This document shows positions 15,622-52,820 of a stretch of 56,475 nt of DNA, piece after piece. The position numbers and the translations under genes are program-made. The DNA comes from Candidatus Niyogibacteria bacterium (GTDB lineage: Bacteria > Patescibacteriota > Minisyncoccia > JACROR01): NCBI GenBank assembly GCA_016186495.1, contig JACPLO010000001.1:110753-167227 (forward strand), read 5' to 3'. The notes below the pieces were generated by a model. The model searched no databases, was not told the DNA's origin, and saw nothing but the letters and a program-made list of their open reading frames with translations. Position 1 is the stretch's first letter, and each line of letters opens with the position of its first letter.

Positions 15622-16485
15622 ATGCCGGAACTGCCCGAAGTAGAAACAATCAGGCGCGATCTTTGTAAAAAAATTATCGGTAAAAAAATTACCGTTGTTG
15701 AAATTCGCGAAAAAAAAATCGCCAAGCCGGACAGCCGAACGCTTATTAAAACGCTCTTGGGAAATAAATTTACGGCGATTGAACGGATCGGCAAACTTTT
15801 AATTTTTCATCTTAAGCGGAAAAATTTTTTTTTATTGGCGCATTTAAAGTTGACAGGACAGCTGGTTTATTGTCCTTTGGCTACGCCGCAAAAATTTACC
15901 CCGTTAAATAGTTGCGAAGCAAATTTAACGAGGTTCACCCGAACAATTATTTATTTTAACGACCAAAGCCGTCTTTATTTTAATGATCTTCGCAAATTCG
16001 GCTGGCTTAAAATAGCCGATAAAACGGAAAAAGAAAAAATTATAAAAGAAAGCTTCGGACCGGACGCGATTTCGAAAGATTTTAATTATCCTTATTTTAA
16101 AAACCGATTGGTCAGCCGAAAAAAAAGCCGGATTAAGGCGGTTCTTTTGGACCAGAGAATAACGGCCGGCATCGGCAATATCTATGCCGATGAATCTCTT
16201 TTTGCGGCCGGCTTGAAGCCGAGCCGGAAAGCCGGATCATTAAAAGACGCGGAAATTAAAAAATTGTTTGCGGCCGTTAAAAAGATTTTGAAAAAAGCGA
16301 TTAAGCGCCGCGGCACTTCAATTAGCGATTATGTTGACGGCCAAGGCCAGCCGGGAAATTTTTCGGAATATTTAAAAGTTTACCAGCGGGAAGGCAAAAA
16401 GTGTTTGCGCTGCAAAAAGGGAATAATAAAAAAAATATATGATAGCGGGCGCGGCACAAGATTTTGCGATTATTGCCAAAAATAA
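15622..16485 (+). CDS. mutM: Formamidopyrimidine-DNA glycosylase with palindromic element insertion
   Basis: A 287-aa base-excision repair glycosylase/lyase that removes oxidised purines. It begins MPELPEVETIRRDL (catalytic Pro2, Glu3), has a helix-two-turn-helix region with DQRITAGIGNIYADE, and ends with a zinc finger (CLRCKKG through FCDYCQK). The segment TPLNSCEANLTRF (about residues 93-105) is encoded by an in-frame palindromic element (15899-15933) in a loop just before IIYFNDQSRLYFNDLRKFGW. Typical proteins are about 270 aa; the excess matches the insertion. It may be co-transcribed with the flavoprotein gene upstream. Confidence 0.92.
   Translation: MPELPEVETIRRDLCKKIIGKKITVVEIREKKIAKPDSRTLIKTLLGNKFTAIERIGKLLIFHLKRKNFFLLAHLKLTGQLVYCPLATPQKFTPLNSCEANLTRFTRTIIYFNDQSRLYFNDLRKFGWLKIADKTEKEKIIKESFGPDAISKDFNYPYFKNRLVSRKKSRIKAVLLDQRITAGIGNIYADESLFAAGLKPSRKAGSLKDAEIKKLFAAVKKILKKAIKRRGTSISDYVDGQGQPGNFSEYLKVYQREGKKCLRCKKGIIKKIYDSGRGTRFCDYCQK
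15899..15933. repeat. Palindromic element inside mutM (copy C, reverse orientation)
   Basis: Arms CCCCGTTAAAT (15899-15909) and ATTTAACGAGG (15923-15933, one mismatch) flank the core AGTTGCGAAGCAA. It is the reverse complement of the pheT copy at 50993 and is translated in frame as part of MutM. Confidence 0.8.
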
Positions 16486-16526: not shown

Positions 16527-16640
16527 ATCCCGTCAGAAGTTCAATCAAGCTTTATTATATTAAAATTAAAAGTAAGCGAAATCGCCTAACGGCTTACTTT
16601 AGTATAAACTTTGGACTTTTATGACAACTTCTAACGGGAT
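16527..16640. repeat. MITE-like element carrying the alaS start region (copy D)
   Basis: The left end ATCCCGTCAGAAGTT (16527-16541) is inverted at the right end as AACTTCTAACGGGAT (16626-16640) with one mismatch. The unit holds a hairpin (AAGTAAGC at 16570-16577 with GCTTACTT at 16592-16599), a TATAAA at 16603-16608 and the alaS ATG at 16621. The right end encodes alaS residues TSNGM. Confidence 0.65.
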
Positions 16641-18360: not shown

Positions 18361-19782
18361 ATGTTTGGCAAAAATCATAAAATCGATTCTTCGGAAAATA
18401 CCGCTTTTTTCGCGCGAAAAAAAAATATGAGCGATATGGTTTCGCGGATTGAATTTAAAAAACCGGAAGCTGTTTTGAAAAAAAAAATGCCGGAAAAATG
18501 CCATATTTGCAAATGGTTTTTCAATTTTTTATTTTCGGCGTTTCGTTTTTTTAAAGATTTCTTTAAAAATTCCGCAAACCCCGTTAAATTTCGCGAAGTT
18601 TACCCTGTTAAATTTACCCCACAACTATTTAACAGGGTAAAACATTTAACTAAGGTAAAAAAGAAAAAAATAGCCATTTTTTTGCTGGCGGCCTTTTTAA
18701 TTATTTTAGGATCTTGGCTGTTTTTGAAAAATTTTTCCCGGCTTACTTTAAAAATCACTCCTCATCAGGAATTTTTTAAAGCGGAAATTGTTTTAAAGGG
18801 AAAAAAAGACGGCCTTTTTGACTTTCCTATTGAAATTATCAGTTTTAAAATTACGGAAGAAGATTCTCGGCCGATAAACGGCAAGAAAGAGATAAAAAAT
18901 AAAGCCCGCGGGCGAATCGTTGTTTATAATGCTTTCAGCTCGGAAGATCAAGTGTTGGTAAAACGCACGCGTTTTGAGACGGCTGACGGAAAAATTTACA
19001 GAATTTCCGAACAAATTACCGTCCCCGGAGCGGAAATAAAAGATGGGAAAATAATTCCCAGTTCCGTTGAAACGGAAATATCCGCCGATCAGCCCGGTGA
19101 AGAATATAATATCGGTTTAACCGATTTTACCATTCCCGGTTTTAAAGGCACGGATCGTTATTCCAAATTTTACGCGCGGTCAAAGACTCCCATGGAAGGA
19201 GGATTCATCGGAATGGCGCGGGTAGTTTCCGAAAAAGACGCGGAAGAAGCAAAGATTTTATTAAAAAATAAATTAGCGGAAAAAATCGATCAGGAATATA
19301 AAAAGCAAATTCCCGAAGATTTAATTTTACTTGAAGGCGCTTCCGAGATTTTTTACGAAGAAGCTGTTTTTACGCCGTTGGTCGGAGAAAAAGGTGAAAA
19401 TTTGACAGCGGCTTTGGCCGCGAATTTTAAGGGTATTTTGATTAAAAAGGAATATTTTTCAAAAGCGCTGGTTAACGCTTATTTGGGTTCTGATTTTATA
19501 AACAGCGCGGCTGCGGCGAATATTGATCAGCTTGGCAAAAAAATCATCAGCCGGGATTTTGAAAAAGGAGAGATTGTTTTAAAAATAAATAATGTTCATT
19601 TGGTATGGAATCTTAATGAATCAGAATTGAAAAACAGCCTTTTAACGGAAAATAAATCGTTTAATGAGATATTCAATGCTCATGATGAAATTAAAAGGGC
19701 GGAGCTTATTTTTTGGCCTTCATGGTGGCAGAGAATTCCTAATAATGCCGAAAGAATAAAAATAGAAAGAGTGTTAGAGTGA
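18361..19782 (+). CDS. Membrane-anchored protein, baseplate J-like domain (CPR type)
   Basis: A 473-aa protein with a cytoplasmic Lys-rich N-terminus, one membrane helix (IAIFLLAAFLIILGSWLFL, about residues 104-122) and a large outer domain. Segments such as ARGRIVVYNAFSSEDQVLVKRTRFETADGKIYRI and DQPGEEYNIGLTDFTIPGF resemble the baseplate J/gp47-like domain often annotated in Parcubacteria membrane proteins. The function is unknown. Residues about 73-93 (NPVKFREVYPVKFTPQLFNR) are encoded by a palindromic element pair and lie between the N-terminus and the membrane helix. A promoter for the ribosomal operon follows. Confidence 0.6.
   Translation: MFGKNHKIDSSENTAFFARKKNMSDMVSRIEFKKPEAVLKKKMPEKCHICKWFFNFLFSAFRFFKDFFKNSANPVKFREVYPVKFTPQLFNRVKHLTKVKKKKIAIFLLAAFLIILGSWLFLKNFSRLTLKITPHQEFFKAEIVLKGKKDGLFDFPIEIISFKITEEDSRPINGKKEIKNKARGRIVVYNAFSSEDQVLVKRTRFETADGKIYRISEQITVPGAEIKDGKIIPSSVETEISADQPGEEYNIGLTDFTIPGFKGTDRYSKFYARSKTPMEGGFIGMARVVSEKDAEEAKILLKNKLAEKIDQEYKKQIPEDLILLEGASEIFYEEAVFTPLVGEKGENLTAALAANFKGILIKKEYFSKALVNAYLGSDFINSAAAANIDQLGKKIISRDFEKGEIVLKINNVHLVWNLNESELKNSLLTENKSFNEIFNAHDEIKRAELIFWPSWWQRIPNNAERIKIERVLE
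18579..18637. repeat. Palindromic element pair in a membrane protein gene (copy E)
   Basis: A partial unit CCCCGTTAAATTTCGCGAAG (18579-18598) is followed by a full unit with arms CCCTGTTAAAT (18603-18613) and ATTTAACAGGG (18627-18637). Compared with other copies both arms carry the matching C-to-T and G-to-A change, so pairing is kept. The reading frame (PVKF) is the same as in pheT and rpoA. Confidence 0.75.
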
Positions 19783-21692: not shown

Positions 21693-22682
21693 ATGGAAAT
21701 AATATTACCATCTAAACCAAAAATTATTGAAGAAACCGAATTCAAGGGTGTTTATGAAATTGAAGGCTTATATCCGGGTTATGGCCACACTTTAGGCAAT
21801 AGTTTAAGAAGAATACTTCTTTCTTCTTTGCCCGGCGCGGCGATTATTACGGTTAAAATAAGCGGCGTGGAACACGAATTTTCCACGATTGAAGGAGTAA
21901 AAGAAGACGTTATTAATATACTTTTGAATCTTAAAAATATTCGTTTGAAGATCCATGCCGAAGAGCCTCAGATTCTTACTTTAAGAGCGGAAAAACAAAA
22001 AAAGATAACCGCCAAAGACATTAAAACTCCTTCTCAAGTGGAAATTATCAATAAGGACGCGCCGATCGCGACTTTAACTTCAAAAAACAGCAAATTAAAC
22101 GCTGAAATTGTTGCGATAAAAGGCATCGGTTATGTTCCTCGCGAAATGATCGTGAAAGATAAAGTTGAAGTCGGAACTATGGTGCTTGACGCGATTTTTA
22201 CGCCGATTAAAAAAGTAAACTACGAGGTGGAAAATATGCGGGTCGGCGACCGGACGGATTTCAACCGTTTGCGGATTTCATTGCAAACTGACGGAACGAT
22301 TTCTCCAAAAGAAGCCTTTGAAAGCGCGGTGAATATAATGATTAAACAGCTGAAAGCCATTTCCGGCTGGAAAGAATCGGAAATGAAAGAGGATAAAGAG
22401 GCGCCCCAGTTAAAAAATGTTGTTTTATCTAAAAAAGAAACGCCGGAAAAAATAAACCCCGTTAAATTTCGCGGAGCGAAAGATTTAACTGGGGTAAAAA
22501 TAGAAGACCTGAATCTTTCCTCGCGCATTCTTAGCGCTCTTAAAGAAGCAGGCATCAAAACAATCGGCGGTTTAACCAAGAAAAAGGAAGAAAATTTATT
22601 AAAGATTGAAGGTTTTGGAAAAAAAGCGCTTGAAGAAATTAAAGAATCGCTTAATAATTTAGGATTGTCGCTTAAAGAATAA
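21693..22682 (+). CDS. rpoA: RNA polymerase alpha subunit with element insertion in the linker
   Basis: A 329-aa alpha subunit. The N-terminal dimerisation domain (about 1-230) has GYGHTLGNSLRRILLSSLPG and PREMIVKDKVEVGTM. The C-terminal HhH domain (about 272-329) has LNLSSRILSALKEAGIKTIGGL and LLKIEGFGKKALEEIKE. In the flexible linker, residues about 255-268 (NPVKFRGAKDLTGVK) are encoded by a palindromic element (22457-22494), a position where an insertion should be tolerated. Confidence 0.96.
   Translation: MEIILPSKPKIIEETEFKGVYEIEGLYPGYGHTLGNSLRRILLSSLPGAAIITVKISGVEHEFSTIEGVKEDVINILLNLKNIRLKIHAEEPQILTLRAEKQKKITAKDIKTPSQVEIINKDAPIATLTSKNSKLNAEIVAIKGIGYVPREMIVKDKVEVGTMVLDAIFTPIKKVNYEVENMRVGDRTDFNRLRISLQTDGTISPKEAFESAVNIMIKQLKAISGWKESEMKEDKEAPQLKNVVLSKKETPEKINPVKFRGAKDLTGVKIEDLNLSSRILSALKEAGIKTIGGLTKKKEENLLKIEGFGKKALEEIKESLNNLGLSLKE
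22457..22494. repeat. Palindromic element inside rpoA (copy G)
   Basis: Arms CCCCGTTAAAT (22457-22467) and ATTTAACTGGGG (22483-22494, one extra base) enclose the inner hairpin TTCGCGGAGCGAA (22468-22480). It is translated in the same frame (NPVKF) as the pheT and 18579 copies. Confidence 0.8.
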
Positions 22683-24056: not shown

Positions 24057-24140
24057 GGGCGCGTCGCATAGCGGCAATTGCATTTGGCTGTAAACCAAAC
24101 GTCCTAACGGACTACGGGGGTTCGAGTCCCTCCGCGCCCA
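24057..24140 (+). tRNA. tRNA-Tyr (anticodon GTA)
   Basis: 84 nt, with a long variable arm as expected for class II tRNA-Tyr. The acceptor GGGCGCG (24057-24063) pairs with CGCGCCC (24133-24139), with discriminator A. The anticodon loop CTGTAAA places GTA at 24090-24092. CCA is not encoded. The T-arm sequence is partly duplicated downstream (24261-24316). Confidence 0.93.
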
Positions 24141-24178
24141 TCGCGAGCGAATGCCTTTTGGCATTCGCGCGAGGGACT
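24123..24178 (+). repeat. 56-bp direct repeat, copy 1 (tRNA-Tyr 3' end plus downstream hairpin)
   Basis: Identical to 24261-24316 over 56 bp. It contains the last 18 bases of tRNA-Tyr and a hairpin CGAATGCC-TTTT-GGCATTCG (24148-24167). TTCGAGTCCCTC (24121-24132, T-arm) is also perfectly inverted as GAGGGACTCGAA at 24171-24182. Confidence 0.9.
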
Positions 24179-24260
24179 CGAAAGCCGGAGCGATGTTCCG
24201 CGAAGCGGAACAAGCGAGGCGGGGTCGCGAGAAATTTCCGTTAGGAAATTTACTTGTGAC
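24179..24260. other. 82-bp insert between the direct repeats
   Basis: It contains two perfect hairpins, GTTCCGC-GAA-GCGGAAC (24195-24211) and AAATTTCC-GTTA-GGAAATTT (24232-24251). There is no ORF. It looks like an insertion or duplication by-product bounded by tRNA 3'-end copies. Confidence 0.6.
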
Positions 24261-24316
24261 CGAGTCCCTCCGCGCCCATCGCGAGCGAATGCCTTTTGGC
24301 ATTCGCGCGAGGGACT
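24261..24316 (+). repeat. 56-bp direct repeat, copy 2 (tRNA-Tyr 3'-end fragment)
   Basis: An exact copy of 24123-24178 without the rest of a tRNA. This is the arrangement expected of an attachment-site duplication or a segmental duplication at a tRNA 3' end. Confidence 0.85.
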
Positions 24317-25918: not shown

Positions 25919-27604
25919 ATGGAGAAAATGATTAAATTAACCGCTTATTTGCAGGATATCGAAGTGTTGAAATCCGAAGTTTTAATTTCAGCTTTTAAGG
26001 CCGTTGACCGCGCGGATTTTATGCCGAAAGAGGCGCGGGAAATGGCTTATCTTGACGAGGCCTTGCCGATCGGCGAAAGCCAGACTATTTCTCAGCCCTA
26101 TACGGTGGCGTTTATGCTGGAACTTTTAAATCCCCGGCCGGGCGAAAAAATAATGGATATTGGCGCGGGTTCGGGCTGGCAGTCGGCAATTTTAGCGGCC
26201 GTGGTTTCTTCCGGCAAATCCGAAGGAAAGGTGTTTTCCATTGAACGGCTCCCTTATCTTTGCGAATTTGGAAAGAAAAATATAGAAAAATATAATTTTA
26301 TAAAAAAAGGGATAATAAAGCATTATTGCCAAGACGCTTTGGAAGGATTGGCGGATGAAGCGCCGTTTGACAAAATTATCGCCGCGGCCGCGCTTAATGT
26401 CCAACATCGGATGTTGAACATATTTGACATTGTGCCTCTGGCTTGGAAAAATCAGCTGAAAATCAACGGGGTGATTGTCGTGCCGATCGGTTCTTCTATC
26501 TGGAAATTCATTAAAAAAGAAGACAATGTTTTTGAAAAACAAGAATTTCCCGGCTTTGCTTTTGTGCCGTTTGTTTACCCCGTTAGAAGTAAGACGCCAG
26601 AGCCGTCTACCGTTCCGTTTGCAACGGAACGAACTCCCGTTAAAAATAAAATAAAAATTTTATCATTAATGCTTGCCGGCGTTTTATTTTTAACAGGCAT
26701 ATTTTATTATTTGTTTTTTTCTCCGCCGTACCGCGAATTTCCGGAGAAAACGGAAAAAATTTTTAATGTTGAAAAGGGAAAAAATTTAAGCGAAATTTCC
26801 CGGGATTTAAAAAATAAAGGATTTGTAAAAAACAATTTTGTTTTTAAAACGGTCTTTTCGCTGATGGCCGGGGAGAATAAAATCAAAGCGGGCGATTATT
26901 TGTTTGAGAAGCCGCTTTCCGTCTGGGAGATTAAAAATCGCCTGGCAAAAGGAATTTACGGAATAGCGCCGTTAAAAGTTACCATTCCCGAGGGTTGGAC
27001 AGTTAAAGACATCGGGTTTTATTTTGAAAATTTAGGGACATTTTCTGCCGAAGAATTTTATTCGCTTTTTACTCAAGAAGAAGGTTATTTGTTTCCCGAC
27101 ACTTATTTTTTTAACGCTGATAACTTAAATCCGGAAATTATCGCAAAAACAATGCGGGAAAATTTTGAAAAAAAAATAACGCCGGAGATAACGGCGGAAA
27201 TTGAACGGCAAGGAAAAAATCTTAAAGAAATAATTATTATGGCTTCAATCATTGAAAAAGAAATGGGCTCGGACGATGACGCCCGCGTCATTTCCGGCAT
27301 TTTATGGAAAAGGTTTGAAGCCGGAATGGGTCTGCAAGCGGACGCGACTCTTACTTACATTATTGCTAAACCGTCGCTTAAATTAACGGAAGAAGATTTA
27401 GCCGTTGATTCGCCGTATAACACTTATAAATATCGCGGTTTGCCGCCGGCGCCTATTTCAAATCCCGGACTTAAAGCTATTCAGGCGGCGATTTTTCCGG
27501 AAAAATCGCCTTACTGGTATTATCTTCATGACCGCGAAGGCCAGCCGCATTATGCCGTTACGTTTGAAGAACATATTGAAAATAAGCAAAAATATTTGCA
27601 ATAA
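25919..27604 (+). CDS. Fusion of PCMT-like methyltransferase and MltG-like endolytic transglycosylase
   Basis: A 561-aa single frame with two complete domains. Residues 1-218 are a protein-L-isoaspartate O-methyltransferase-like domain: RADFMPKEAREMAYLDEALPIGESQTISQPYTVAFMLELL and the SAM motif IMDIGAGSGWQSAIL. Residues about 220-243 (PVRSKTPEPSTVPFATERTP) are encoded by a palindromic element. A membrane helix (ILSLMLAGVLFLTGIFYYLFF) and a YceG/MltG domain follow, with IIMASIIEKEMG (catalytic Glu), QADATLTYI and YRGLPPAPISNPGLKAI. MltG cleaves nascent peptidoglycan outside the membrane; PCMT repairs proteins in the cytoplasm. The fusion topology (PCMT inside, MltG outside) is feasible. Two separate genes are the usual state. 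Confidence 0.85.
   Translation: MEKMIKLTAYLQDIEVLKSEVLISAFKAVDRADFMPKEAREMAYLDEALPIGESQTISQPYTVAFMLELLNPRPGEKIMDIGAGSGWQSAILAAVVSSGKSEGKVFSIERLPYLCEFGKKNIEKYNFIKKGIIKHYCQDALEGLADEAPFDKIIAAAALNVQHRMLNIFDIVPLAWKNQLKINGVIVVPIGSSIWKFIKKEDNVFEKQEFPGFAFVPFVYPVRSKTPEPSTVPFATERTPVKNKIKILSLMLAGVLFLTGIFYYLFFSPPYREFPEKTEKIFNVEKGKNLSEISRDLKNKGFVKNNFVFKTVFSLMAGENKIKAGDYLFEKPLSVWEIKNRLAKGIYGIAPLKVTIPEGWTVKDIGFYFENLGTFSAEEFYSLFTQEEGYLFPDTYFFNADNLNPEIIAKTMRENFEKKITPEITAEIERQGKNLKEIIIMASIIEKEMGSDDDARVISGILWKRFEAGMGLQADATLTYIIAKPSLKLTEEDLAVDSPYNTYKYRGLPPAPISNPGLKAIQAAIFPEKSPYWYYLHDREGQPHYAVTFEEHIENKQKYLQ
26578..26650. repeat. Palindromic element at the PCMT-MltG junction (copy H)
   Basis: It starts CCCCGTTAGAAGT (26578-26590), includes hairpins AGACG/CGTCT (26592-26608) and GTTCCGTT-TGC-AACGGAAC (26612-26630), and ends ACTCCCGTTAAAA. 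It is translated from PVRSK in the same frame as the PVKF copies and contains no stop codon. Confidence 0.7.
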
Positions 27605-49445: not shown

Positions 49446-49600
49446 CCCCGTTAAAAATAAGACGCAAACGTTATTACTTTAAATTTACGATATATCGAAA
49501 ATGGAATGTGAATAGTATATAAACTTAACCGACTGGATGTGTTTATTTACATTAAAGGAACGAACAAATTGTTTTCAAGCGTTTGCGATTTCTAACGGGG
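49446..49600. repeat. MITE-like element upstream of pheS (copy J1)
   Basis: The left end CCCCGTTAAAAATAAGACGC (49446-49465, then AAACG) is roughly inverted at the right end (about 49580-49600: CGTTTGCGATTTCTAACGGGG). The ends pair over about 20 positions with a short gap. It is noncoding and 155 bp long. Confidence 0.5.
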
Positions 49601-50726: not shown

Positions 50727-52820
50727 ATGAGAGTAAGTTATAATTGGTTACAATCTTTTTTTGCCAAAGAATTGCCAAAACCGGAAAAATTAGCGGAGCT
50801 TTTGACGCTTCATTCTTTTGAAGTTGAAAATTTAGAAAAAAAGAGCGGAGATTTTCTTCTGGATATTGATGTTTTGCCCAACCGAAAACATGATTGTTTA
50901 TCGCATATCGGAATCGCGAGAGAAATCGCCGCCATTCTTAATTATGAAATTAAAAATACAAAGCGTGAGATTCAAAACAAATCAAAAATTCACCCCGTTA
51001 AATTTGCTTCGCAACTATTTAACGGGGTAAACCCCGTTAAATTTGCTTCACGGTTATTTAACGGGATAAAAATTCAGGAGCCAAAATTATGTTTTCGTTA
51101 CATCGGAGCGATAATTCAGGGAATAAAAACCGGGCCTTCGCCGGAATGGCTCAAAGAACGGCTGGAAGTCCTTGGCCAGAGAACAATTAATAATATTGTT
51201 GACGCCGTTAATTACGCGATGCTGGAATTAGGACAGCCGCTTCATGCTTTTGACGCCGATAAAATAGAAGGAGTAATTATGGTCAGAAGAGCGGAAAATG
51301 AAGAAAAAATAGAAACTTTGGATAATGAAAAAATTAAGCTGGATAAAGATGTATTGGTGATCGCGGATAATAAAAGCCTTTTAGCCATCGCCGGCATTAA
51401 AGGCGGAAAAAAAGCGGAAATAACCGAAAATACGAAAAATATTATTTTGGAAGCGGCTAATTTTGAGCCGGTGAACATCAGAAAAACTTCGCGCCGAATC
51501 GGTTTAGTTACTGATTCTTCTCTTCGATTTTCCGCCGGCCTTGATCCTGAATTAGCCAAAGAAGCGATGGAACGAGTAATCAATTTAATCATTCAAATTG
51601 CCGGCGGCCGCCAATCAGAGCCATTCAAAGACTTTTTCCTTAAAAAAAGAAAAATTTCTGCCATTCCGTTAAACTTAAAAAAAATTAATTCGGTTTTAGG
51701 CGCGGACATCAGCCGGCCGGAAGTTAAAAATATCTTAACGCGGCTCGGCTGTTCGATTAAAGAAAAAAAAGGAAATATTTTTCTGGTTACTCCTCCTTCT
51801 TTCCGGCTGGATTTGGAAATAGGAGAAGATTTAATTGAAGAAGTCGGAAGAATCCGCGGTTATGATAAAATAACCGCTTGTCCGGCTAAAGTTGAACTTT
51901 CTGATTTTCCAAAAAATGAAACGGCGGTTTTGCGTTCCCGTTTTAAGGACCGTTTGAAAGCGTTGGGTTTCAGTGAGGCGTATAATTATTCTTTCGCGGG
52001 AGAAAAAGAAATCGGTTTTTTTGGAAACAACCGGAATATCTTTAAATTAAAAAATCCCTCCAAACCCGAATTTGCTTTCCTCCGGCCTTCTTTACTTTTT
52101 GGTTTAGCTGCCGTTCTGGAAAAAAATTTAAAATATGAGAAAACCTTGAAGTTTTTTGAGATCGGGAAGATTTTCTGCCAAAAAGAAGAAGAAAAATTGT
52201 CTTTAGCGACAGCTTCTTTGGATTGGCGGGAAAGCCAGGAAGCGTTTTTTGAATTGAAAGGCGCGCTTTGTTCGTTTTTGGAATCTTTTGGTTTAACCGA
52301 TTACTGGTTTGACGACGCGTTTTCGCCGGGCGACCAATTTTTACCGGGAGGTTTTTTTCATCCTTATCAGGCAAGCGAGATTAAAATAGGAGAAAAAAAA
52401 ATCGGTTTAATCGGCGCCCTTCATCCGGAAGCAGGGAAAGAATTTAAAATTAAGGGAAAAGCGGCGTTTTCCGAACTTGATTTTGATTTGCTTTTAAATC
52501 TGGTTGCCGAAGAAAATGAATATCTGCCGATTTCAAAATATCCGGCGGTGACGCGGGATTTAGCGATTTTGGTGCCGATAGAAACTAAAATGGCGGAAGT
52601 GGCGGACGTGATTGAAAACAGCGGCGGAGAATTTTTGATTGACGCGGACCTTTTTGACGTTTATCAGGGAAAAGAACTTGAGGAAGAAAAGAAAAATTTT
52701 GCTTTTCATTTGATTTTTCAAAGCCAAGAAAAAACTTTGAGCGATCAAGAAGTTGACAGATTAATGGAAAAAATCATTAAAGCGCTAGAAGAAAATCCGG
52801 CGTGGGAAACGAGAAAATAA
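50727..52820 (+). CDS. pheT: Phenylalanyl-tRNA synthetase beta subunit, EMAP-less, with element insertion
   Basis: 697 aa; typical bacterial PheT is about 790-800 aa. After VSYNWLQSFF and HSFEVENLEKK it passes directly to LDIDVLPNRKHDCLSHIGIAREIAA, so the EMAP-like tRNA-binding domain is missing. B3/B4 editing, B5, the catalytic-like core and the C-terminal anticodon-binding (FDX-ACB) domain with YPAVTRDLAILVP are present. Residues about 89-114 (HPVKFASQLFNGVNPVKF and on) are encoded by two tandem palindromic elements (50993-51066), just ahead of the B3/B4 domain. Confidence 0.95.
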   Translation: MRVSYNWLQSFFAKELPKPEKLAELLTLHSFEVENLEKKSGDFLLDIDVLPNRKHDCLSHIGIAREIAAILNYEIKNTKREIQNKSKIHPVKFASQLFNGVNPVKFASRLFNGIKIQEPKLCFRYIGAIIQGIKTGPSPEWLKERLEVLGQRTINNIVDAVNYAMLELGQPLHAFDADKIEGVIMVRRAENEEKIETLDNEKIKLDKDVLVIADNKSLLAIAGIKGGKKAEITENTKNIILEAANFEPVNIRKTSRRIGLVTDSSLRFSAGLDPELAKEAMERVINLIIQIAGGRQSEPFKDFFLKKRKISAIPLNLKKINSVLGADISRPEVKNILTRLGCSIKEKKGNIFLVTPPSFRLDLEIGEDLIEEVGRIRGYDKITACPAKVELSDFPKNETAVLRSRFKDRLKALGFSEAYNYSFAGEKEIGFFGNNRNIFKLKNPSKPEFAFLRPSLLFGLAAVLEKNLKYEKTLKFFEIGKIFCQKEEEKLSLATASLDWRESQEAFFELKGALCSFLESFGLTDYWFDDAFSPGDQFLPGGFFHPYQASEIKIGEKKIGLIGALHPEAGKEFKIKGKAAFSELDFDLLLNLVAEENEYLPISKYPAVTRDLAILVPIETKMAEVADVIENSGGEFLIDADLFDVYQGKELEEEKKNFAFHLIFQSQEKTLSDQEVDRLMEKIIKALEENPAWETRK
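50993..51066. repeat. Two tandem palindromic elements inside pheT (copy K)
   Basis: Unit 1: arms CCCCGTTAAAT (50993-51003) and ATTTAACGGGG (51017-51027) around TTGCTTCGCAACT. Unit 2: CCCCGTTAAAT (51032-51042) and ATTTAACGGG (51056-51065) around a diverged core. The 4-nt spacer makes the unit period 39 bp, so both are read in the same frame (PVKFASxLFNG). Confidence 0.88.

Follow-up and report, generated by a model that had tools for sequence, protein, structure and literature searches.

A gene with two unrelated domains

How two separate genes, pcm and mltG, came to lie in one open reading frame across a palindromic repeat is the question raised by a locus of Candidatus Niyogibacteria (genome G000), contained in the window that was analysed (the whole stretch of 56,475 nucleotides from contig JACPLO010000001.1). 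As the sequence-only reading had stated, a PCMT domain runs without a stop into an MltG domain, giving one ORF of 561 aa in which both Pfam domains are complete. The features of this ORF are as follows:

25919–27604, forward strand: fused PCMT-MltG ORF, 561 aa, no internal stop
25934–26575, forward strand: PCMT domain, residues 6–219 (Pfam PF01135, 2e-39; alignment, motifs QTISQPYTVAFM and DIGAGSGW conserved)
26579–26638, forward strand: element-encoded linker PVRSKTPEPSTVPFATERTP, predicted to be disordered (mean pLDDT about 30)
26657–26722, forward strand: transmembrane helix preceding MltG (hydropathy peak at residue 247; model helix 242–267)
26762–27592, forward strand: MltG/YceG domain, residues 282–558 (Pfam PF02618, 6.5e-75; TIGR00247 above cut-off)

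The first half of the protein scored 136 bits with PF01135 (Pfam threshold 20.3) and stayed under the NCBIfam equivalog cut-offs (155 vs 188 bits and 126 vs 159 bits); judged by its sequence it is PCMT-like, its exact function being unproven. The second half scored 252.6 bits with PF02618 (threshold 32.4) and 208 bits with TIGR00247 (cut-off 103), and retained the ASxIEKE, PDTY and YNTY motifs in the alignment. An alignment of ten fused proteins showed that conserved motifs are present in both halves. In the AlphaFold2 model built from this alignment, both domains were confident, the helix at residues 242–267 coincided with the hydropathy peak, and a low-confidence stretch (residues 218–244) corresponded to the element-encoded linker. 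MltG is anchored by a single N-terminal helix, with which a cytoplasmic N-terminal extension is compatible, and the assignment of the PCMT and MltG domains to opposite sides of the membrane is not anomalous. Compared with stand-alone PCMT and MltG proteins, both domains are complete and keep their conserved motifs but are part of one polypeptide, an arrangement also found in nine other genomes of the class.

The junction contains a degenerate element copy

The segment between the two domains (26578–26650) had been read as a copy of a palindromic element. This was supported by an exact left arm and two inner hairpins, but the right arm is missing and the copy is degenerate. The following parts were distinguished:

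26574–26577, forward strand: TTTA adjoining the left arm, at the position expected for a 4-bp target duplicate (TNNA duplicates occur family-wide; the right copy is lost)
26578–26590, forward strand: left arm CCCCGTTAGAAGT of the palindromic element, exact match
26592–26608, forward strand: inner hairpin II, weakened (folding)
26611–26631, forward strand: inner hairpin III, CGTTCCGTT TGC AACGGAACG (folding)
26632–26642, forward strand: remains of the right arm, complementarity to the left arm lost (compared with the intact copies L058, L137 and L139)

The sequence ACCCCGTTAGAAGT at 26577–26590 matches the arm exactly, and with at most two mismatches this arm was found seven times in the window, against 0.13 matches expected. 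The right arm ACTTCTAACGGGGT is not present at the end of the junction, where AACTCCCGTTAAAAAT stands instead. With this arm gone the junction copy no longer forms a full palindrome, and when folded alone it kept the two inner hairpins and lost the outer stem of intact copies. Its position is exactly that between FVPFV, the last conserved residues of the PCMT, and the point where the MltG membrane helix begins; in several relatives (L008, L027, L031) pcm ends with FVPFV or FVPLV followed by the stop, the element starting at the same position. Joining the empty site at the junction, with an assumed right border because the right arm and the duplicate are lost, gave either FVPFV-stop or an open frame, depending on the border.

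A MITE-like element family

The element family is a small, non-autonomous, MITE-like coding palindromic element. Its arms, which are terminal inverted repeats, could be identified and matched as pairs in dozens of copies, and the arm consensus matched 102 sites across the genome of G000, compared with 7 for the reversed pattern. Intact copies of the junction subtype fold into a Y composed of a 13-bp stem and two hairpins, and the fold is kept despite sequence change: 96% of cells were paired, and 48 cells were double-changed, compared with 12.3 in shuffles (0 of 500 shuffles were as high as 48). Identical 4-bp direct repeats flanked 37 of 64 distinct copies (shuffled mean 5.7, maximum 14); for flank repeats of 2, 3, 5 or 6 bp the same 64 copies yielded 1–4 each. 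These 4-bp duplicates (TTTA, TAAA, TGAA, TTCA, TTGA, TCAA and others) mark the element as MITE-like, its target being of the TNNA type. The family shares with MITEs the terminal inverted repeats, the fixed 4-bp target duplicates and the lack of an ORF of its own for movement, and differs from them in a highly variable interior whose fold is kept.

Of 384 genomes in the class, 179 carry the arm, the reversed pattern being almost without matches; in a sample of the phylum the element was found in 18 of 116 genomes, and it extends to a few genomes of other classes. Its spread is patchy, with 43 matches in G000 and none in G001, a genome of the same family. No autonomous parent or transposase of the element was identified. 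One candidate parent, located between 48-nt inverted repeats at 49593 and 51039 (the sole long inverted-repeat pair in the window), was rejected because the repeats enclose an ordinary gene. The window also contains two identical 56-nt direct repeats (CGAGTCCCTCCGCGCCC...) of inverted-repeat character, 138 nt apart, at 24123–24316.

pcm and mltG in relatives

All 35 two-gene loci that were analysed have pcm next to mltG with the orientation shared; the genes were separate in 25 and joined in an open frame in 10, including the locus described here. The nine other fused genomes of the class have unrelated linkers without this element, and the alignment revealed large variation of the linkers in both sequence and length. 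G002, which matches best over the full length (52% identity), is fused without the element. The occurrence of the fusion in nine element-free genomes suggests that it is readily gained or lost, and the tree over 35 rows needs five changes between the fused and the unfused state.

In this tree, the sister group of G000 is family f45 (G119, G100 and G056; support 96/87), in which pcm and mltG are separate and out of frame, with a 14-nt overlap in L012. The sequence-only reading had anticipated that close relatives would keep the two genes apart, and the f45 genomes, the nearest relatives with both genes, do so. It had also named a fusion lacking the repeat in close relatives as an observation that would speak against a role of the element: such fusions exist in the nine class genomes, but not in the nearest relatives with both genes. 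In G001, the closest genome, mltG was found and pcm was not detectable, so the state just before the insertion is not seen in a close relative. A search for relatives within the order of G000 gave a single other genome, which has mltG without pcm. A scan of genome contigs yielded 8 loci, and those with both genes were unfused.

Origin of the fusion

We think it fairly probable that the conserved operon neighbours pcm and mltG are fused here at the level of translation, the join being a degenerate element copy that inserted at the end of pcm. The element would have entered a TTTA located at the pcm 3' end, its open frame replacing the stop, and loss of the right arm would then have removed the duplicated target, any regenerated stop and the mltG start, resulting in one open frame. 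In the predicted product, a disordered linker encoded by the element tethers a cytoplasmic PCMT to the MltG membrane helix; one fused protein would presumably be made, with both halves active. The more specific proposal that the element, by replacing the pcm stop and the mltG start, caused the fusion is favoured by the position of the copy at the exact end of pcm and by the unfused nearest relatives, but in view of the nine element-free fusions, which also show that the fusion is not unique, it is plausible rather than proven. Since the sister group f45 is unfused and the linkers of the other fusions are unrelated, the fusion in G000 was probably an independent one that the element accompanied.

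The fusion may instead have come first, through a short linker as in G002, with the element landing later in a linker that tolerated it. This order of events, which we regard as possible though doubtful, is in line with the element-free fusions (G002 among them), with the great differences between linkers and with the fact that some empty-site joins remain in frame. It is at odds with the tree, which places the unfused f45 nearer to G000 than the fused G002, and with the start of the element at precisely the position of the pcm stop in L008, L027 and L031.

That the ORF is open and two proteins are nevertheless produced, by internal initiation of MltG (for example at ATG 26669) or by cleavage of the linker, seems unlikely to us. 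The predicted disorder of the linker and a strong hairpin that could affect ribosomes would fit such a scheme, as would the location within the membrane helix of ATG 26669, the sole in-frame start codon from the end of the PCMT domain to this helix. However, no Shine-Dalgarno-like sequence was noticed by eye upstream of this ATG, and with a start there the helix would lack its positively charged N-terminal flank. Removal or skipping of the element RNA, by splicing or ribosomal bypassing, to give a fused protein without the linker is very improbable: the Y structure of intact copies is strong and closed, and copies occur even within tRNA genes, but the outer stem is lost in the junction copy, and excision would not need the open frame and the length plus duplicate divisible by three of the coding subtype described below (an argument that is partly circular). 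That the assembly wrongly joined two loci at the repeat is very unlikely, although the site is a repeat and the assembly has 12 contigs, because the order and orientation of pcm and mltG are those conserved in the class and an arm of 13–14 bp is too short to mislead ordinary assembly.

Element copies in frame inside protein genes

The subtype to which the junction copy belongs, with GTAAGA after the arm, was present in 57 of the 384 class genomes and encodes the peptide PVRSK...RTSNGV. This frame was found inside a tRNA_bind domain, an RluA-type pseudouridine synthase (PseudoU_synth_2), an SMC protein (SMC_N) and a signal peptidase (Peptidase_S26). In PriA, a family-2 glycosyltransferase (GT2), a lamin-tail-domain (LTD) protein and, in G000, an SLT-domain protein (SLT_2), it lies at an end or close to one; other copies of the subtype are intergenic. 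In the genes examined, this coding subtype has an open frame and the length of element and duplicate is divisible by three, a conservation of frame that is partly circular, as these genes were found via the open frame. A shorter related element of about 37 bp encodes PVKFASQLFNGV or a similar peptide. Further copies in or at genes of the window are:

15895–15939, forward strand: short related element in frame (FTPLNSCEANLTRFT) in an ORF read as mutM (gene name by sequence reading)
16527–16640, forward strand: element at the start of an ORF read as alaS, its right end supplying or abutting the start codon (the TGAA duplicate overlaps the start codon)
18578–18643, forward strand: two short related elements in frame in ORF 18361–19782
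22456–22493, forward strand: short related element in frame (NPVKFRGAKDLTGVK) in an ORF read as rpoA (gene name by sequence reading)
50989–51070, forward strand: two tandem shorter related elements in frame in pheT (HPVKFASQLFNGVNPVKFASRLFNGI; pheT domains confirmed)

Element copies with tRNA genes inside broken tRNA genes

Some copies contain a complete tRNA gene while themselves interrupting another tRNA gene, usually at the anticodon loop. A pattern composed of a tRNA T-arm and the right arm was found at 28 places in 23 class genomes, and the reversed pattern at none. Where both arms and an inner tRNA were present, the isotype of the inner tRNA equalled the best-match isotype of the outer tRNA in 24 of 25 cases, as judged against a reference of 111 tRNAs that covers all isotypes found in G000 and is enriched for isotypes in which nesting is common. 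In G000, 48 tRNAs were found, and the anticodons of the element-flanked genes for Leu-CAG, Thr-TGT, Val-GAC, Gln-CTG, Arg-TCG and Ala-CGC occur in no other gene of this set. The nests are located at:

G000: L051/L152 (C1:30.6 kb), L043/L174 (C2:36.8 kb), L091/L176 (C10:68.5 kb), L066/L178 (C11:25.8 kb), L194 and L210
Other genomes: L151–L177

In one triple nest (L166, G218 C13:19.5 kb), an element with a tRNA-Leu lies within a tRNA-Leu, and the outer gene is flanked by a second pair of arms. Target duplicates are mostly absent at the tRNA nests, so that their origin may differ from that of the other copies.

Two further observations concern these sites. Where element ends lie inside tRNA genes, as in L154, L155 and L171, they often have TTCA at one flank and CAAG at the opposite one, whichever the orientation, in place of a direct target duplicate. 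G001 has no exact match of the general arm, yet it harbours a Leu-in-Leu nest with a slightly diverged arm (L153, C26:2.85 kb).

A possible reading, though less likely than not, is that this is a selfish family adapted to tolerating its own insertion in essential genes, by a frame-preserving ORF in protein genes and by a same-isotype tRNA that replaces the broken one, the pcm-mltG fusion being one by-product. The element family is a more important finding than the fusion.

Relation to known elements and significance

Some genomic islands and ICEs insert in tRNA genes and restore them, so that tRNA function is kept. The nested copies would resemble them in this respect, but here the outer tRNA is broken, in most cases at the anticodon loop, by an element of roughly 100–250 bp that brings along a second, complete tRNA whose isotype is the same. 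Rickettsia palindromic elements (RPEs), a kind of MITE, are small palindromic mobile elements that lie in frame in unrelated protein genes and encode a conserved peptide (PMC10969869). The present family resembles them in these traits and differs in the group of organisms, in the length of its coding subtype (mostly 65–80 bp vs about 150 bp for RPEs), in its tRNA cargo within tRNA genes and in a copy that bridges two genes. A search of the literature, with subscription papers mostly outside it and thus weak as evidence, gave nothing relevant on a PCMT-MltG fusion, on palindromic or MITE elements in Parcubacteria/Patescibacteria or on nested tRNA genes.

At this locus a mobile element lies in frame where two genes are fused, and the family to which it belongs extends coding palindromic elements beyond Rickettsia, across a large group of bacteria with reduced genomes. 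Through elements of this kind, proteins can become longer and neighbouring genes of an operon can be linked. The apparent replacement of the essential tRNA genes that the element breaks would, if true, represent a new route by which a tiny selfish element survives in essential genes.
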